64,000 bases of DNA, taken from the NCBI RefSeq assembly GCF_002245655.1, contig NZ_NOIH01000002.1, positions 124,001-188,000 of the forward strand, read 5' to 3'. The notes below the pieces were generated by a model, which made no database searches, had not been told where the DNA came from, and saw only the letters and a program-made list of their open reading frames with translations. Made by a program: the position numbers and the translations under genes. Shown in pieces: positions 57,519-64,000 of this stretch; position 1 is the stretch's first letter; each line of letters opens with the position of its first letter. The stretch comes from Thauera propionica (GTDB lineage Bacteria > Pseudomonadota > Gammaproteobacteria > Burkholderiales > Rhodocyclaceae).

Positions 57519-58130
57519 TCAGGCGAGCTTCGGCAGCAGCCCGTGCTCGCGCAGGAACTGCTGCAGGATCTCCAGCCGGCTGACCACGTCGTCGAGCTCG
57601 AGCAGGCGCTGCTTGGCTTCCAGCGGCACCGGCAGCAATTCGGCGTAGCGCGCACCGACCCAGCCCGCATCGTCGAAGCGGTGCGGCGGCGGCAGGCGGT
57701 CGCCGAGTTCGGCGACGATGGTCTGCAGCAGCGGCAGCAGATCGAGCTGGGCATTGGGCATCGGCTGCGGCGCGGGCTCGTCGAGCCAGCGCACTTCGCC
57801 CACCAGCAGGCCGTCACGTTCGACCTCATGATCAACGATGCGGAAGCGCCGGCCGCCGCGCGTCAGCAGGGTCAGCAGCCCCGCCTGCTCCATGTCCCAC
57901 TGCTCGATGTGCGCTTCGGTGCCCACCGGATGCGGCACGGCGGCCTCGCCGACCTCGTCGCCGGCGGCGATCAGACACACGCCGAACGGCGTGCCCTCCC
58001 TCATGCAGCGCGTGACCATGTCCATGTAGCGCGGCTCGAACACGCGCAGCGGCAGCACGCCCTCCGGGAACAGCACGGTCTTGAGCGGGAACAGCGGCAG
58101 GCGCGTCAGCAGGGTGGATGACTCACTCAT
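57519..58130 (-). CDS. Lon N-terminal (substrate-binding) domain protein
   Basis: 203 residues: LLTRLPLFPLKTVLFPEGVLP, LRVFEPRYMDMVTRCMREG, FGVCLIAAGDEVGE and GRRFRIVDHEVERDGLLVGEV. It is the PUA-like domain found at the N-terminus of Lon protease, here alone without ATPase or protease parts, as is common in proteobacteria. Role unknown. The start overlaps the ubiX stop by one base (TGATG). Confidence 0.92.
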   Translation of the reverse strand: MSESSTLLTRLPLFPLKTVLFPEGVLPLRVFEPRYMDMVTRCMREGTPFGVCLIAAGDEVGEAAVPHPVGTEAHIEQWDMEQAGLLTLLTRGGRRFRIVDHEVERDGLLVGEVRWLDEPAPQPMPNAQLDLLPLLQTIVAELGDRLPPPHRFDDAGWVGARYAELLPVPLEAKQRLLELDDVVSRLEILQQFLREHGLLPKLA

Positions 58131-58765
58131 CAATCTCGATTCCCAGGTTGCGCGGGGTCCTCGCCCCAGCGCGCCATCAATGCATGCGTGACGCCGAGTT
58201 GGTCGAGGATGCGTGCGACGACAAAGTCCACGAGATCCGCGACCGACTGCGGATGGTGATAGAAGCCCGGGTTGGGCGGCAGGATGCACACCCCGAGGCG
58301 AGCGAGCTTGAGCATGTTCTCGAGATGGATCGCCGAGTACGGTGTCTCGCGCGGCACCAGCACCAGCTTGCGTCCTTCCTTGATCACGACGTCGGCCGCG
58401 CGCTCGATGAGGTTCTGGCTCAAGCCACCGGCGATGGCCGCCAGCGTGGCCATGGTGCACGGGCACACCACCATCGCATCCGGCGGATTGGAGCCCGACG
58501 CCGGCGGCGCGAACCATTCCTCGCGGCCAAACACGCGCAACTGGCCCGGCACGGCGCCGAAGCGCGCCGACAGCTCGGCCTCGACCTCGGCCGGGCGCGC
58601 CGGCAGGTTCCAGTCCATCTCCTGCCGCGCGACGATCTGCGCCACCTGCGAATACAGCAGCCACACGCGATGTCCGGCCTGAAGCAGGCATTCGACCAGC
58701 CGCACCCCATAGGGCAGGCCGGACGCGCCGGTGAACGCGACGGTAATGGTACGTGGGGCGCTCAT
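58130..58765 (-). CDS. ubiX: Flavin prenyltransferase UbiX
   Basis: 211 residues: ITVAFTGASGLPYGVRLVECL, VVCPCTMATLAAIAGGLSQNLIERAADV, RKLVLVPRETPYSAIHLENML and PNPGFYHHPQS. It makes prenylated FMN for UbiD-type decarboxylases, used in ubiquinone synthesis. It is coupled to the Lon-domain gene downstream. Confidence 0.96.
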   Translation of the reverse strand: MSAPRTITVAFTGASGLPYGVRLVECLLQAGHRVWLLYSQVAQIVARQEMDWNLPARPAEVEAELSARFGAVPGQLRVFGREEWFAPPASGSNPPDAMVVCPCTMATLAAIAGGLSQNLIERAADVVIKEGRKLVLVPRETPYSAIHLENMLKLARLGVCILPPNPGFYHHPQSVADLVDFVVARILDQLGVTHALMARWGEDPAQPGNRD

Positions 58766-58800
58766 CGGCCTCCTTCAGCCAGGAATGACAGCGCGCAAAG

Positions 58801-59967
58801 TCAGCGCAGGTAGTCCGTGATCAGCTCCCAGCGCCCGTTGCGGATCTGTGCCAGACGCCCATGGCGGTTGCCGAGGTGGTCGTCGGCGCTGAAGCGGTAC
58901 GACGGGCTGCCGAAGTAATCACGGGTGAATTCGAGGCGTTCGAGGGTGCGCGCGAACGCCTCGGGCGTCAAGTCGCGACCGGTCGCCTCGGCGGTACGCA
59001 CGAACATGTCGGCCAGCGAGTAGCCCATCACGCTCCAGACGTTGGGCGCCGCACCGAAACGCGCGCGGTAGCGCTCGATCCAGTCGGCGAGCTGGCTGTT
59101 CGCGCCCTCGGCATAGGGGTGCGGCAGCACGCTGACGCCGTACAGGCCCTCGACTGCGTCACCGCCGAGTTCGTGCGTCTGGGCCGAATAGCCCGACGCC
59201 GTCACCAGCATATCGACCTTCCAGCCGATGCGCCTCGCCTCGGCCATCGCTGCCACGGTTTCGCGCACGACGGTGGCAAGCACGACCAGATCGCATTCGG
59301 CCGCACGCAGGCGTGCGACCTGGCTCGACAGGTCGGTGGCGCCGCGCTTGTAACCGGTGCGCTCGAACAGCGTCTGGCCGAGCCTCTCGAGGCCTGTCTC
59401 GACGCCCTTCATCACCTCGAGACCGTAGTCGTCGTCCTGGTACAGCAGGCAGGTGCGACGATAGCCGCCAGCCTGCACCATGTGCCGTGTCGCAGCCTCC
59501 ATGTAGTCCTGGTAGGGCGCGAAGTTCTGGAACTTGAGCGGGTGCAGCGGTTCGTAGGTCGCCTTGTGCGGCGAGAACGGGAACAGGTGCAGGCGCCCGG
59601 CCTCGAGTACCACCGGCATCGTCGCCATCACCACCGGCGTGCCCATCGTGGCGATGAAGGCAAAGGCTTTGTCGCGCTGCACCAGCTTGCGCGCCGCCAG
59701 CACGCCGCGCTTGGGATCGTAGCCCGCGTCCTCGACCGCCAGCCGCAACCTCCGACCATGCACCCCGCCGGCGGCATTGGCCTCGTCAAAGCGCATCAGC
59801 ATTCCGTCGCGCACCGGCGTGCCCAGCATCGCGATCGGCCCCGACAGGTCAGAGATGTGGCCGACGACGATCTCGCGCGCGCTGACGCCGGCGACATCGG
59901 CCGCATGAAGGGAGGTGCCGGCCAGAGCGGCAAACAGGGCAAGGGCGAGGCGACGCAAGCGTTTCAT
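58801..59967 (-). CDS. Branched-chain amino-acid-type ABC transporter substrate-binding protein
   Basis: 388 residues from the ATG at 59967, with an AGGAG site ten bases upstream. Signal peptide ending ASLHAAD-like (about residue 22), then a family-1 periplasmic fold (Peripla_BP_6): IVVGHISDLSGPIAMLG, RFDEANAAGGVHGRRLRL, EDAGYDPKRGVLAARKLVQ, and MGYSLADMFVRTAEATG. The ligand may be an amino acid, amide or aromatic acid. It follows livM by about 100 bases. Confidence 0.92.
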   Translation of the reverse strand: MKRLRRLALALFAALAGTSLHAADVAGVSAREIVVGHISDLSGPIAMLGTPVRDGMLMRFDEANAAGGVHGRRLRLAVEDAGYDPKRGVLAARKLVQRDKAFAFIATMGTPVVMATMPVVLEAGRLHLFPFSPHKATYEPLHPLKFQNFAPYQDYMEAATRHMVQAGGYRRTCLLYQDDDYGLEVMKGVETGLERLGQTLFERTGYKRGATDLSSQVARLRAAECDLVVLATVVRETVAAMAEARRIGWKVDMLVTASGYSAQTHELGGDAVEGLYGVSVLPHPYAEGANSQLADWIERYRARFGAAPNVWSVMGYSLADMFVRTAEATGRDLTPEAFARTLERLEFTRDYFGSPSYRFSADDHLGNRHGRLAQIRNGRWELITDYLR

Positions 59968-60067
59968 CGCGGAGGATCTCCTGGAGGAATACAAGGCGGC
60001 AGTCACGCCGCTTCACAGGGCTCGGATTGTCGAATGATCCAGAATTGCGAGCAAGCGGGTGCCGGCG

Positions 60068-61042
60068 TCATCCGCTGCGCGGGCCGCTGGCCAGCCCCTG
60101 CGGCCGCAGCAGGACGACCGCCACGATGATCGCGCCGAACAGCACCAGTTCCAGCCCCGCCGAGCGCGCCCAGTCGCCGGGCAGGGTGTCGCGCAGCACG
60201 GCGATCGCCTGCGGGATCGCCACCACCACCAGCGCGCCCCACACCGCACCGGACAGGCGCCGCGCGCCGCCGATGAACGCCAGCATCAGCAGCTCGAACG
60301 AGAACACGAGGCCGAACTGCTCGGGGCTGATGAAGCCGATCCAGTGCGCGTAAAGGCTGCCACCCAGTGCCGACAGGCTGCCGCCGACGATGAAGGCGCG
60401 CAGCTTGGCCGCGCCGGGCGCGATGCCGCAGGCATCGGCGGCAGCCTCGTCCTCGCGTACCGCACGCCACGCGCGCCCGAGACGCGAGCGAAGCAGGCGG
60501 GCAGCGAGCGCGAGCGCGATAAGCAGTACAACGATGCTGACCGCCGCCTGCGCCAGCGGCGTGTCGGCCTGCCAGCCCGCCAGGCCGAAGCCCGGCACCA
60601 TCAGGCCGGCCGCGCCGTGCGTCAGCGACTCCCAGCGCACCAGCGCCTCTTCGACGATCAGCGCGAAGGCGAGCGTACTCATGCCGAAGTACAGCCCGCC
60701 GAGTCGCCCCGCCGGCAGGCTCGCCAGCACGCCGCCCAGCGCACCGACGGTGGCCGCCAGCGGCAAGGCCAGCAGCGGCGCCACGCCGGCCTGCACCAGC
60801 AGGGTCTGGGCATAGGCCCCGAGCGCGACGAGCGCGCCCTGCCCGAGCACGATCTGCCCCGCCTGGCCGACGATGATGACCACCCCGAGACCCGCGATGG
60901 CGTAGGTCGCGACCAGCGTCGCCTGGCTGAAGGCGAAGTCGGCGCCGAGCCACCCCACCGCGAGCGCCAGCAGCAGCCCCCAGACGAAGGCTGCACGCAG
61001 CACGCGCAGCCCCTCCGGGGCCGCCACCGGCGTCGCGCTCAT
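60068..61042 (-). CDS. Branched-chain-type ABC transporter permease (LivM-like)
   Basis: 324 residues, about ten membrane segments. GLGVVIIVGQAGQIVLGQGALVALGAY is the typical LivM signature, followed by AWRAVREDEAAADACGI and a PQGLASG end. It forms the inner-membrane channel with the LivH-type protein; start and stop overlap by ATGA. No livG or livF ATPase gene is found in the window. Confidence 0.92.
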   Translation of the reverse strand: MSATPVAAPEGLRVLRAAFVWGLLLALAVGWLGADFAFSQATLVATYAIAGLGVVIIVGQAGQIVLGQGALVALGAYAQTLLVQAGVAPLLALPLAATVGALGGVLASLPAGRLGGLYFGMSTLAFALIVEEALVRWESLTHGAAGLMVPGFGLAGWQADTPLAQAAVSIVVLLIALALAARLLRSRLGRAWRAVREDEAAADACGIAPGAAKLRAFIVGGSLSALGGSLYAHWIGFISPEQFGLVFSFELLMLAFIGGARRLSGAVWGALVVVAIPQAIAVLRDTLPGDWARSAGLELVLFGAIIVAVVLLRPQGLASGPRSG

Positions 61043-61914
61043 CGCCCGCCCCCGCCCGCACGCCCCGCGGCCAAGCCCTGCGGGAACAGCAGCAGCGCGG
61101 CCATCAGCAGCACGTAGGGCACGACGTCCTTCGCCCCCTCCGGCAGCACCAGCCCTGCAAGCGCCTCGACCACGCCGAGAAACAGACCGCCGGCCAGCGC
61201 GCCCGGCAGGCTCGTGAGCCCGCCCAGCACCGCCGCCGGAAAGGCCTTAAGCGCGATCAAACCCATGTTGAGGTGCACGAAGGTGATCGGCGCCAGCAGC
61301 AGGCCGGCCACCGCCGCCAACCCCGCGCCGAGGGCCCAGGCCAGGGTGTGCATGCGCGCCACCGGCACGCCCATCAGCGCCGCGACGCGCGCATCCTCGG
61401 AGCAGGCGCGCAGCGCGAGGCCGGCGCGGGTATGCCGAAAGAACAGCGCGAGCAGCAACACCAGCACGACGGTGGCGAGCACGACCCACACATGGCTTGC
61501 TGCCAGCACCAGCGGGCCGATGCCGAGGGTGTCGGCCGCGAAGGGCAGGCGGTACATGTCCTGCGCCGCAGCCGGCACCGAGGCCACGCCGCCGCGCATC
61601 ATCATGCCGAGGCCGAAGGTCAGCAGCACCGCGACCAGATGCGGCTGGCCGATCGCACGCCGCAGCGCAACCCGTTCGAGCCCGGCGCCGAGCAAGGCCA
61701 CCGCCAGCACCGCGCCAACGGCCGCCAGTGCCAACGGCCAGCCCGCCGCGAGGTGCAGCGCCAGCCCGGCAAAGCCGCCCAGCATCAAAAGGTCGCCCTG
61801 CATGAAGCTGACCGTCTCGGTTGCCTTGAACACCAGCACGAAGGACAGCGCCACCAGGCCGTACACGCAGCCGATGGCGATTCCGCTGGAGAGGACCTGG
61901 AGGAAGGAAAGCAT
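61039..61914 (-). CDS. Branched-chain-type ABC transporter permease (LivH-like)
   Basis: 291 residues from the ATG at 61914, with an AAGGA-rich ribosome-binding site. LivH signatures: GIAIGCVYGLVALSFVLVFK, TETVSFMQGDLLMLGGF, GLALRACSEDARVAALMGV, ALKAFPAAVLGGLTSLPGAL and a C-terminal LLLFPQGLA. It is the first gene of the minus-strand livHM-binding-protein run. Confidence 0.92.
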   Translation of the reverse strand: MLSFLQVLSSGIAIGCVYGLVALSFVLVFKATETVSFMQGDLLMLGGFAGLALHLAAGWPLALAAVGAVLAVALLGAGLERVALRRAIGQPHLVAVLLTFGLGMMMRGGVASVPAAAQDMYRLPFAADTLGIGPLVLAASHVWVVLATVVLVLLLALFFRHTRAGLALRACSEDARVAALMGVPVARMHTLAWALGAGLAAVAGLLLAPITFVHLNMGLIALKAFPAAVLGGLTSLPGALAGGLFLGVVEALAGLVLPEGAKDVVPYVLLMAALLLFPQGLAAGRAGGGGR

Positions 61915-62001
61915 GGGGGCGAAGCATAGCAGCCGATCCGCCCCCTGCACCGCTGCCCGGCTGGTGCCGCGCAGCAGGCTGCCGTGATCACGCCGAACTG
62001 A

Positions 62002-62976
62002 TCACACCGAAGTCAGCGCCGCACTCGGCGGCAGGGCGCAGGCGGCACGGTACTCGCGCGCGAGGCGGGCCACCAGCTCGGCCGTGGTCGGCACATCGTG
62101 GATCGTCGCCACGCCGTGGCCCGCACTCCACACGTCGCGCCAGGCCTTGGCCTCCTCGGCGAGGTCGTGCAGCTTGCCCTTGCCGAAGCCGGCGGCCAGT
62201 TCCTCGCGCCGGTAGCCCGCACGCTCGAGGCTCTGCCACATGAAGTTGGCGTTGGTGCCGGAGATGGCATCGGTGTAGACGATGTCGGCCGGGACGCAGT
62301 CGACCACCATCTGCTTGTATTCCGGCTGGGCCATCGCCTCGCGGGTAGCGATGAAACGCGTGCCCATGTAGGCGAGGTCCGCCCCCAGCACTTCGACCGC
62401 GCGGATCGCCGCGCCGTCGGAGATCGCACCGGCCGCGACCAGCAGGCCGTCCCAGAACTCGCGGATCTCGCGCACCAGGCTGATGACGTTCTGCCCGCCC
62501 GCATGCCCGCCCGCGCCGCCAGCCACCGCGATAATGCCGTCGACGCCCGCCGCGATCGCCTTGCGCGCATGGTAGGCATGGACGACGTCGGACAACACCA
62601 GCCCCCCGTAGCCGTGCACCACCTTCACGACCTCGGCCGGATTCCCCAGGCTGGTGATCACGATCGGTACCTGGTGACGGACGAGGATCTCCAGGTCTTC
62701 CTGCAGCCGCACATTGGACGCATGCAGGATCAGGTTGACCCCGTGCGGCGCGCACGGCGCATCGGGATTGGCCGCGCGATGGGCAGCGAGTTCAGCATCG
62801 ATGCGCGTCAGCCACTCGTCGAGCTGCGCCGCCGGCCGGGCGTTCATGGCCGGGAAGGTGCCGGCGACACCGGCCTTGCAGGTTTCGATGACGAGGTCCG
62901 GGCCGGACACGAGGAACATCGGGGCGGCGATCGCCGGCACGCTGAAACGGCCGCGCAGGCTGGCGGGAAGGCTCAT
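62002..62976 (-). CDS. Nitronate monooxygenase / 2-nitropropane dioxygenase-like flavoenzyme
   Basis: 324 residues, FMN TIM barrel: VPAIAAPMFLVSGPDLVIETC, VPIVITSLGNPAEVVK, GVDGIIAVAGGAGGHAGGQN (phosphate binding), LVAAGAISDGAAIRAVEVLGADL and YMGTRFIATREAM. The family includes nitronate monooxygenases and FabK-type enoyl reductases; these two cannot be separated here. The ATG has AAGGAGA upstream. A sigma-70 promoter overlapped by a long palindrome lies 60-100 bases upstream. Confidence 0.88.
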   Translation of the reverse strand: MSLPASLRGRFSVPAIAAPMFLVSGPDLVIETCKAGVAGTFPAMNARPAAQLDEWLTRIDAELAAHRAANPDAPCAPHGVNLILHASNVRLQEDLEILVRHQVPIVITSLGNPAEVVKVVHGYGGLVLSDVVHAYHARKAIAAGVDGIIAVAGGAGGHAGGQNVISLVREIREFWDGLLVAAGAISDGAAIRAVEVLGADLAYMGTRFIATREAMAQPEYKQMVVDCVPADIVYTDAISGTNANFMWQSLERAGYRREELAAGFGKGKLHDLAEEAKAWRDVWSAGHGVATIHDVPTTAELVARLAREYRAACALPPSAALTSV

Positions 62977-63033
62977 GGGCTAGTCTCCTTGAATGGATCG
63001 GGACGCCTTCGCAGGGGCGTCTGCCGGACAGCG

Positions 63034-63075
63034 ACTCTAACATCGCCCCGGCAGGATTCAAACGATCGTTTAAAT
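63034..63075 (-). promoter_or_regulatory. Promoter with overlapping palindromic operator
   Basis: On the minus strand TTGAAT (63056-63061) and TAGAGT (63034-63039) have 16-bp spacing. The -35 lies inside a 20-bp palindrome (63056-63075) with a perfect AAACGATCGTTT core and one mismatched outer pair, a layout typical of TetR-type repression. Confidence 0.6.
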
Positions 63076-63115
63076 TTACGCACCCACCCCTGCGTCCCGA
63101 CCATCGGAAGGGGCT

Positions 63116-64000
63116 TCAGCCCAGGAAACGGTCGTAGACACCCTGGCGCCACAGCACGATCGCGATGACGACCACGATCAACAGGAACATCCAGGTGCCC
63201 CAGGGTGTTTCCTTCTCCGCATAGGGGTCTGCCATCGAACGCGAAGCTCCCGCCGGCAGGCTTGCCACACCGGTGAGCGCACTGCCGAATGGAATGTTGA
63301 TGCGGGCGCGGGTGTTCACCGCCCAGCCGTTGGCGTCGAGCAACGGCCCGAGGTTGCGCTGGCGCAGCTTGAGCCAGGCCAGCAGCATCGACGGTCCGGA
63401 AATGAGCAACATGACGCCGGCGATCACCAGCGGCATCTGCCAGCCGGGCAGCGACAGAAAGCCCGTCACGACCGCCGCCAGTGCAGTGCCCAGGGCGCCG
63501 AGCGCGAGGCCGATGGCGGCGAAGATGCCGGCGAACTTGGCGATGTCGAAGGCCTGGGGCGCGGGGGCTGGAGCGGGCGCGGGCGCTTCGACCTTGGCCC
63601 CGGCACCGGCCACGCCGGCCGCCGCCTTGTCCTCGACCGCCTTGTCGCGCGAAGCCGCGAACTTCTGAATCTGGTCGCCGATCATGCGGCCTACGCGCTT
63701 GTATGGCGACCAGAAGGCCTGGCGCACGCTGATCGGCGCTTCCACCACCTTGACCACGGCTGCGTTCCAGTCCCGCCCCCGGCGGTCATAGAACACGCCG
63801 TTGCGGCCCGGCACCATCATTTCGTCGGCATCGCCGCCGGTCATCGCCGCGACGATGGTGATCGGCGCCTCGCCTTCGCGCCTGCATTCGCAATACACGA
63901 GGTAGGCACCGGACAAGGGCGCCAGCGCGGCGTGGCGTCCCATGTCGGAAACGCGCAGGCACAACTCGCAGCTGCGCTGATCGAGGTAGAGCGTGCCCGC
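63116..64000 (-). CDS. Membrane protein of unknown function, 5' partial
   Basis: The frame is open to the right edge, so the start is missing; at least 294 residues are visible. Near the edge there is a CELC pair, then a soluble domain with YCECRREGEAPITIV and VFYDRRGRDWNAAVVKV. An Ala/Pro-rich linker follows (EAPAPAPAPAPQ), then two adjacent hydrophobic segments (GIFAAIGLALGALGTALAAV; PLVIAGVMLLISGPSMLLAW) and a final membrane helix (WMFLLIVVVIAIVLW). I recognise no family. The cysteines suggest a metal or redox site. Confidence 0.7.
   Translation of the reverse strand, partial: AGTLYLDQRSCELCLRVSDMGRHAALAPLSGAYLVYCECRREGEAPITIVAAMTGGDADEMMVPGRNGVFYDRRGRDWNAAVVKVVEAPISVRQAFWSPYKRVGRMIGDQIQKFAASRDKAVEDKAAAGVAGAGAKVEAPAPAPAPAPQAFDIAKFAGIFAAIGLALGALGTALAAVVTGFLSLPGWQMPLVIAGVMLLISGPSMLLAWLKLRQRNLGPLLDANGWAVNTRARINIPFGSALTGVASLPAGASRSMADPYAEKETPWGTWMFLLIVVVIAIVLWRQGVYDRFLG

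Follow-up and report, generated by a model that had tools for sequence, protein, structure and literature searches.

In Pseudomonas, the TetR-family regulator PsrA recognizes a box of the form C/GAAAC-N4-GTTTG/C, as given in two papers (PMC13104628, PMC5722320), and the PsrA box of the P. putida rpoS gene reads TTCAAACN4GTTTGAA (PMC13104628). In Ralstonia and Burkholderia, PsrA has shifted to fatty-acid biosynthesis and FadP is predicted for degradation, according to PMC5343134; the words Thauera, Azoarcus and Rhodocyclales are absent from the main text of that paper. SMLT2053 of Stenotrophomonas maltophilia binds fatty acids and represses a putative beta-oxidation operon (as described in PMC13104628).

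Here we analyze a palindrome in a 64,000-nucleotide stretch of Thauera propionica DNA (the window), upstream of a gene filed as a nitronate monooxygenase (NMO; Pfam NMO; 62002-62976, minus strand). We consider it very probable, from comparative sequence evidence, that this palindrome is the operator of a remotely encoded PsrA-type repressor that would cover the -35 element of the NMO promoter and be released by fatty acids. Set beside the systems described in print, the Thauera system is like that of Pseudomonas in its TetR-family regulator, its identical half-sites, and its sites at fadE-type genes and at the regulator's own promoter; unlike it, the Thauera regulator gene heads a fadE-thiolase-fadJ-like operon, and an NMO target is absent from the literature searched. 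With PsrA and FadP of Burkholderia and Ralstonia it shares TetR-family regulators of fatty-acid genes in betaproteobacteria, whereas the Thauera PsrA-like protein sits with degradation genes and PsrA of those genera is said to serve biosynthesis. SMLT2053 is likewise a PsrA-like TetR protein with the motif at its own promoter, but it belongs to a different bacterial class and has a different target set. A link of PsrA to nitronate monooxygenase was not found in the literature searched, in Thauera or elsewhere, although an earlier prediction may exist; papers pairing PsrA with Thauera concern, as listed, DMSO/polysulfide-reductase or metagenome topics. The kind of operator, a PsrA box, is known; what seems new is NMO as a target, along with a small regulon for fatty acids among Thauera and its kin.

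The palindrome and the NMO promoter

The palindrome ATTCAAACGATCGTTTAAAT (63056-63075, assigned to neither strand) occupies part of the 139 bp that separate the NMO start at 62976 from the stop of the upstream reading frame at 63116, both on the minus strand. The sequence-only reading had described a 20-base palindrome with a perfect core, and this is borne out: nine of ten arm positions pair in the 20-bp inverted repeat, the core AAACGATCGTTT (63060-63071) is a perfect 12-bp palindrome, and the site differs from TTCAAAC-N4-GTTTGAA at one position. The symmetry alone is unremarkable in the window, which holds 13 20-bp stretches with at least 9/10 positions paired, where 60 first-order Markov sequences average 9.1, and 50 perfect 12-bp palindromes, where they average 47.5; by itself symmetry proves nothing, because inverted repeats of such quality are not rare in a window of 69% G+C, and conservation is what counts. 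As an A/T-rich word the core is rare in such DNA: the window has one match at up to one mismatch (shuffle mean 0.04) and the 3.93-Mb genome a single exact copy. The window's copy is a slightly degenerate member of its motif, with TAAAC in one half; the half-site pattern (C/G)AAAC-N4-GTTT(G/C) is present at the promoter of the TetR gene and at one of the acyl-CoA dehydrogenase sites, both discussed below, and in most of the orthologous NMO promoters that bear a site.

A consensus promoter scan of 61500-64000 returned zero sigma-70-like sites, so that the earlier description of the palindrome as sitting on the only good promoter is not borne out by it, while its placement over the -35 is supported by the conserved position of the arm. 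An ungapped alignment on the palindrome of the promoters of 16 of the 18 site-bearing orthologues (L076 and L095 were left out) has little conserved beyond the palindrome itself and a TGcTA.AgT block that resembles an extended -10. The right arm falls at the expected -35, with its TTGA(A/C/T) (TTTA in L064) 16 bp ahead of TA(G/C)A(G/T)T in the same columns of all 16 aligned promoters. Block and arm together read as a promoter whose -35 would lie inside the operator. In the window this putative promoter, recognized through conservation, is TTGAAT (63056-63061, minus strand, the NMO-side arm), a 16-bp spacing and TGT-TAGAGT (63034-63042, minus strand), an overlap of palindrome and promoter elements that would be able to block polymerase.

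Conservation upstream of NMO orthologues

NMO relatives were drawn from a 61-genome set, of which 39 had a match at E 0.001, and from a second source of genome contigs with 79 loci. The 52 rows compared comprise the 14 same-genus genomes (own included) with an NMO match at ≥73% identity and 38 from the second source; its remaining loci, being records that match one of the 14, truncated near the gene or, for the most part, of lower identity, were left out. Each row was scored by its best match to TTCAAAC-N4-GTTTGAA within 300 bp upstream of NMO. The distribution is split: 18 of the 52 orthologues score 12-14 of 14, with the site starting 54-129 bp before NMO, and the remaining 34 reach at most 9/14, compared with a single Markov shuffle of the same regions out of 1560 that reaches 12/14. 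Their record titles place Thauera, Azoarcus, Parazoarcus, Pseudothauera, Rhodocyclaceae bins and a single Hydrogenophilus among the 18; one of them, L095, is a doubtful site. A scan of the wider loci with another pattern, in which rows with less than 100 bp upstream were dropped, gave no further site at ≥13/16 within 300 bp of the NMO start.

The palindrome stays with NMO where the neighborhood changes. In L004-L006 the window's upstream neighbor lies 0.4-0.5 kb farther off and the palindrome remains with NMO; in L004 a divergent 212-aa reading frame separates NMO from the displaced neighbor and the palindrome is kept. In Parazoarcus communis (L066), the operator before NMO is longer, forming a perfect palindrome of 30 bp, GATGAATTCAAACGATCGTTTGAATTCATC.

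Other copies in the genome

Searching the T. propionica genome with the 20-mer at up to 3 mismatches gives three places, against none for a reversed control: the promoters of NMO, of a TetR-family gene and of an acyl-CoA dehydrogenase gene. The 18-mer (14 fixed bases) at up to 2 mismatches gives 5 against 1, and the three with 0-1 mismatch are the same three places. The exact core is single, and searching with it was too strict to find a regulon; the other sites share TTCAAAC-N4-GTTTGAA around a different centre. Because of that difference in centre, it would be misleading to take a lack of other copies in the genome, as the sequence-only reading had proposed, as grounds for rejecting the idea. 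The suggested regulon gains support, at the level of predicted sites, from a further fatty-acid oxidation promoter in the set besides the TetR promoter.

At that further promoter, of what we call the second acyl-CoA dehydrogenase, the box starts 114 bp before the gene and a second, weaker box lies at -75; both are retained in two close orthologues. The two PsrA-type boxes (G000:C23 ~501975-502035; L039 / L216-L218) start 39 bp from each other; one covers a TTGACA -35, the other starts at the end of a possible TAAAAT -10, and this is possibly a double-operator promoter. Homologues at ~50% identity have no site at ≥12/16 and are assumed to represent another paralogue.

The strict regulon looks small, with three predicted promoters. 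The relaxed motif AAACGNNCGTTT at up to one mismatch is not enriched in the genome (35 against 47 in the control), SAAACNNNNGTTTS shows no clear excess there (3 against 2), and in other genomes the 18-mer at up to 2 mismatches gives little excess (e.g. 5 against 4 in G012 and 1 against 1 in G008). Weaker sites elsewhere are not visible by these searches, since the relaxed motifs have no clear excess. Among the five exact AAACGNNCGTTT places, two without the full TTC/GAA flanks were set aside as chance: C21:2809, shortly before the ATG of a frame that is presumably a Tn3-type transposase, and C55:235456, inside listed reading frames.

The PsrA-like regulator

The genome has six TetR_N matches, and a close copy of the palindrome stands at the promoter of only one, which is consistent with the TetR-type operator originally proposed and gives the remote regulator a candidate identity. 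This gene (G000:C23:246367-247044, minus strand) encodes a predicted PsrA-type repressor whose best PDB match is 2fbq (1.4e-40; the next is 5e-15), which we take to be P. aeruginosa PsrA, PA3006. The two proteins are identical at 82 of 209 aligned columns, including 42 of the first 60, and share the stretch NLAAVNYHFGSK without change; with 2fbq taken as PsrA, the candidate has a TetR_N helix-turn-helix with the PsrA recognition stretch. Its best NCBIfam model is also PsrA. Since its 163.3 bits fall below the cut-off of 300 for that model (NF053516, named for Vibrio), we call the regulator PsrA-type and not an NF053516 equivalog.

Downstream on the same strand follow a FadE-type dehydrogenase (1158.8 bits with NF007000 against a cut-off of 600, and 1113 with the E. 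coli FadE model, which requires 1300), a thiolase, a FadJ-like protein (503 bits, short of the cut-off of 869) and a thioesterase. The promoter of the regulator gene consists of TTGACA, 16 bp and TATGAT, and the box TTCAAACAAACGTTTGAA begins at the last base of TATGAT and ends 11 bp ahead of the ATG. Such a box, at ≥12/14 near the start, is found in 57 of 60 genes of the psrA group, own included, at identities down to 39%, a count taken without a shuffle control over the 60 loci fetched from 30 + 45 psrA matches. The regulator's own box, shared so widely, would suit autoregulation, and the sites at its fadE-thiolase-fadJ-like operon and at the two-box acyl-CoA dehydrogenase would place beta-oxidation genes under its control.

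Co-distribution of psrA and the NMO site

Fourteen same-genus genomes have a close NMO. The site is present in all 5 of them in which psrA is detected (E 1e-30) and in 1 of the 9 in which it is not. The assembly of that one genome, G023, has a completeness of 91% and a contamination of 8%. A 6369-bp contig breaks off within its fadE, on the side where psrA sits in the 7 psrA-bearing genomes compared; psrA may be missing only from the assembly. Three genomes (G011, G025 and G002) keep fadE but lack psrA, and the 1.4-1.5 kb upstream of their fadE hold no box; in G011 and G025 the NMO promoter retains the -10 but not the palindrome. In five other genomes of the genus (G001, G006, G013, G016 and G021), neither psrA at E 1e-30 nor a FadE-type match at E 1e-100 was found, and the whole psrA-fadE operon seems to be absent.

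Over the 52 rows, 17 have both site and psrA, 1 the site without psrA, 23 psrA without the site and 11 neither, with L099, which yielded nothing closer than a protein of 39% identity, counted as lacking psrA. The association is weak (Fisher p = 0.039, over related rows), and the site label changes 6 times on the NMO tree against a shuffled mean of 15.1; because the rows are related in this way, co-distribution is support and not proof. The NMO site is absent from 23 of the 40 psrA-bearing genomes, all 9 Zoogloea rows among them, and most of these genomes, the Zoogloea rows for example, lack liv genes next to NMO. In Azoarcus TTM-91 both the liv genes and psrA, the latter with a full box, are present, yet the NMO site has been lost. 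A separate case is G070 (Hydrogenophilus, L076), whose psrA match contains an in-frame TGA and whose NMO promoter retains the PsrA-type site.

Proposed mechanism and alternatives

The operator reading rests on a site that is conserved, lies on a conserved promoter, shares its motif with the promoter of the repressor gene itself and is co-distributed with the regulator within the genus. A PsrA-type dimer would bind both half-sites and cover the -35 of the NMO promoter, and so bound would presumably exclude RNA polymerase and repress NMO. If the dimer behaves like PsrA of Pseudomonas, it would be released by long-chain fatty acids or their derivatives, and NMO would be switched on jointly with the psrA-fadE-thiolase-fadJ-like operon and the second acyl-CoA dehydrogenase; livH, livM and the binding-protein gene are probably transcribed with it.

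The sign of control could be the opposite, with a PsrA-type protein activating the NMO promoter as PsrA does at Pseudomonas rpoS, and PMC13104628 does describe PsrA as both activator and repressor. We regard this as very unlikely, since the arm itself lies on the -35 at a fixed spacing, where a bound dimer should exclude polymerase, a similar layout of -35 and box recurs at the second acyl-CoA dehydrogenase promoter, and in L014 and L015, which lack psrA, the -10 persists with the site gone. Even less probable, in our judgment, is that the repressor acting here is not PsrA but another member of the TetR family, or some other dimeric protein, that recognizes a similar motif. The genome does have five further TetR_N matches, and the window copy departs from the strict Pseudomonas consensus in one half (TAAAC) and has the centre GATC, whereas AAAC and GAAC are commoner in psrA promoters; but no 18-mer match at up to 2 mismatches lies near any of those five, some psrA promoters have the same GATC or a GACC centre (L200, L205), and the NMO site is absent from eight of the nine same-genus genomes without psrA. 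That the palindrome arose by chance, or serves the upstream gene as a terminator or another RNA element, agrees with a symmetry no commoner than chance and can practically be dismissed, as the sequence is conserved across genera while the upstream neighbor changes and no terminator-like sites were found in 61500-64000.

The enzyme, its neighbors and implications

The NMO product scores 76.8 bits with Pfam NMO (cut-off 28) and 91.7 bits with the FabK model, short of its cut-off of 453. Among proteins of known structure, a profile of 15 family members is nearest to a FabK-type FMN enoyl-ACP reductase (2.4e-32), with a putative nitroalkane dioxygenase close behind (5.6e-32) and, lower, the 2-nitropropane dioxygenase 3bw2 (6.2e-20) and 2gjl/6e2a (~1e-17). 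The FabK-first ranking and the fatty-acid regulator together make an acyl-chain role worth testing.

Next to NMO, all on the minus strand, lie genes for a livH-type ABC permease (61039-61950), which keeps its order with NMO in relatives and is probably in the same operon, a livM-type ABC permease (60068-61042), an ABC-type periplasmic binding protein (58801-60006) and a UbiX-type flavin prenyltransferase (58130-58765), a conserved neighbor. Over 57519-62976 the order is NMO, livH, livM, periplasmic binding protein, ubiX and a LON-substrate-domain gene, and it is preserved in several Thauera, Azoarcus and Pseudothauera genomes. No ABC ATPase was recognized among the window reading frames given to Pfam.

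We put forward, as a speculation more likely wrong than right, that the "nitronate monooxygenase" and the liv-type transporter form a fatty-acid-induced module in Thauera, Azoarcus and kin, in which the enzyme, as a FabK-like FMN protein, acts on acyl thioesters or on unsaturated chains, and the transporter imports a carboxylate connected with lipid breakdown; if so, the annotations as nitronate and branched-chain amino acid functions would both be wrong. The distribution within one genus suggests that operator and regulator have been lost together, and the findings suggest that Thauera and its kin have a PsrA-type regulon that includes degradation genes, unlike the biosynthetic role given for PsrA of Burkholderia and Ralstonia in PMC5343134. 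They offer a physiological lead, fatty-acid breakdown, for an FMN enzyme family known mostly under the nitronate label, and the same lead for a liv-type transporter without an assigned substrate.
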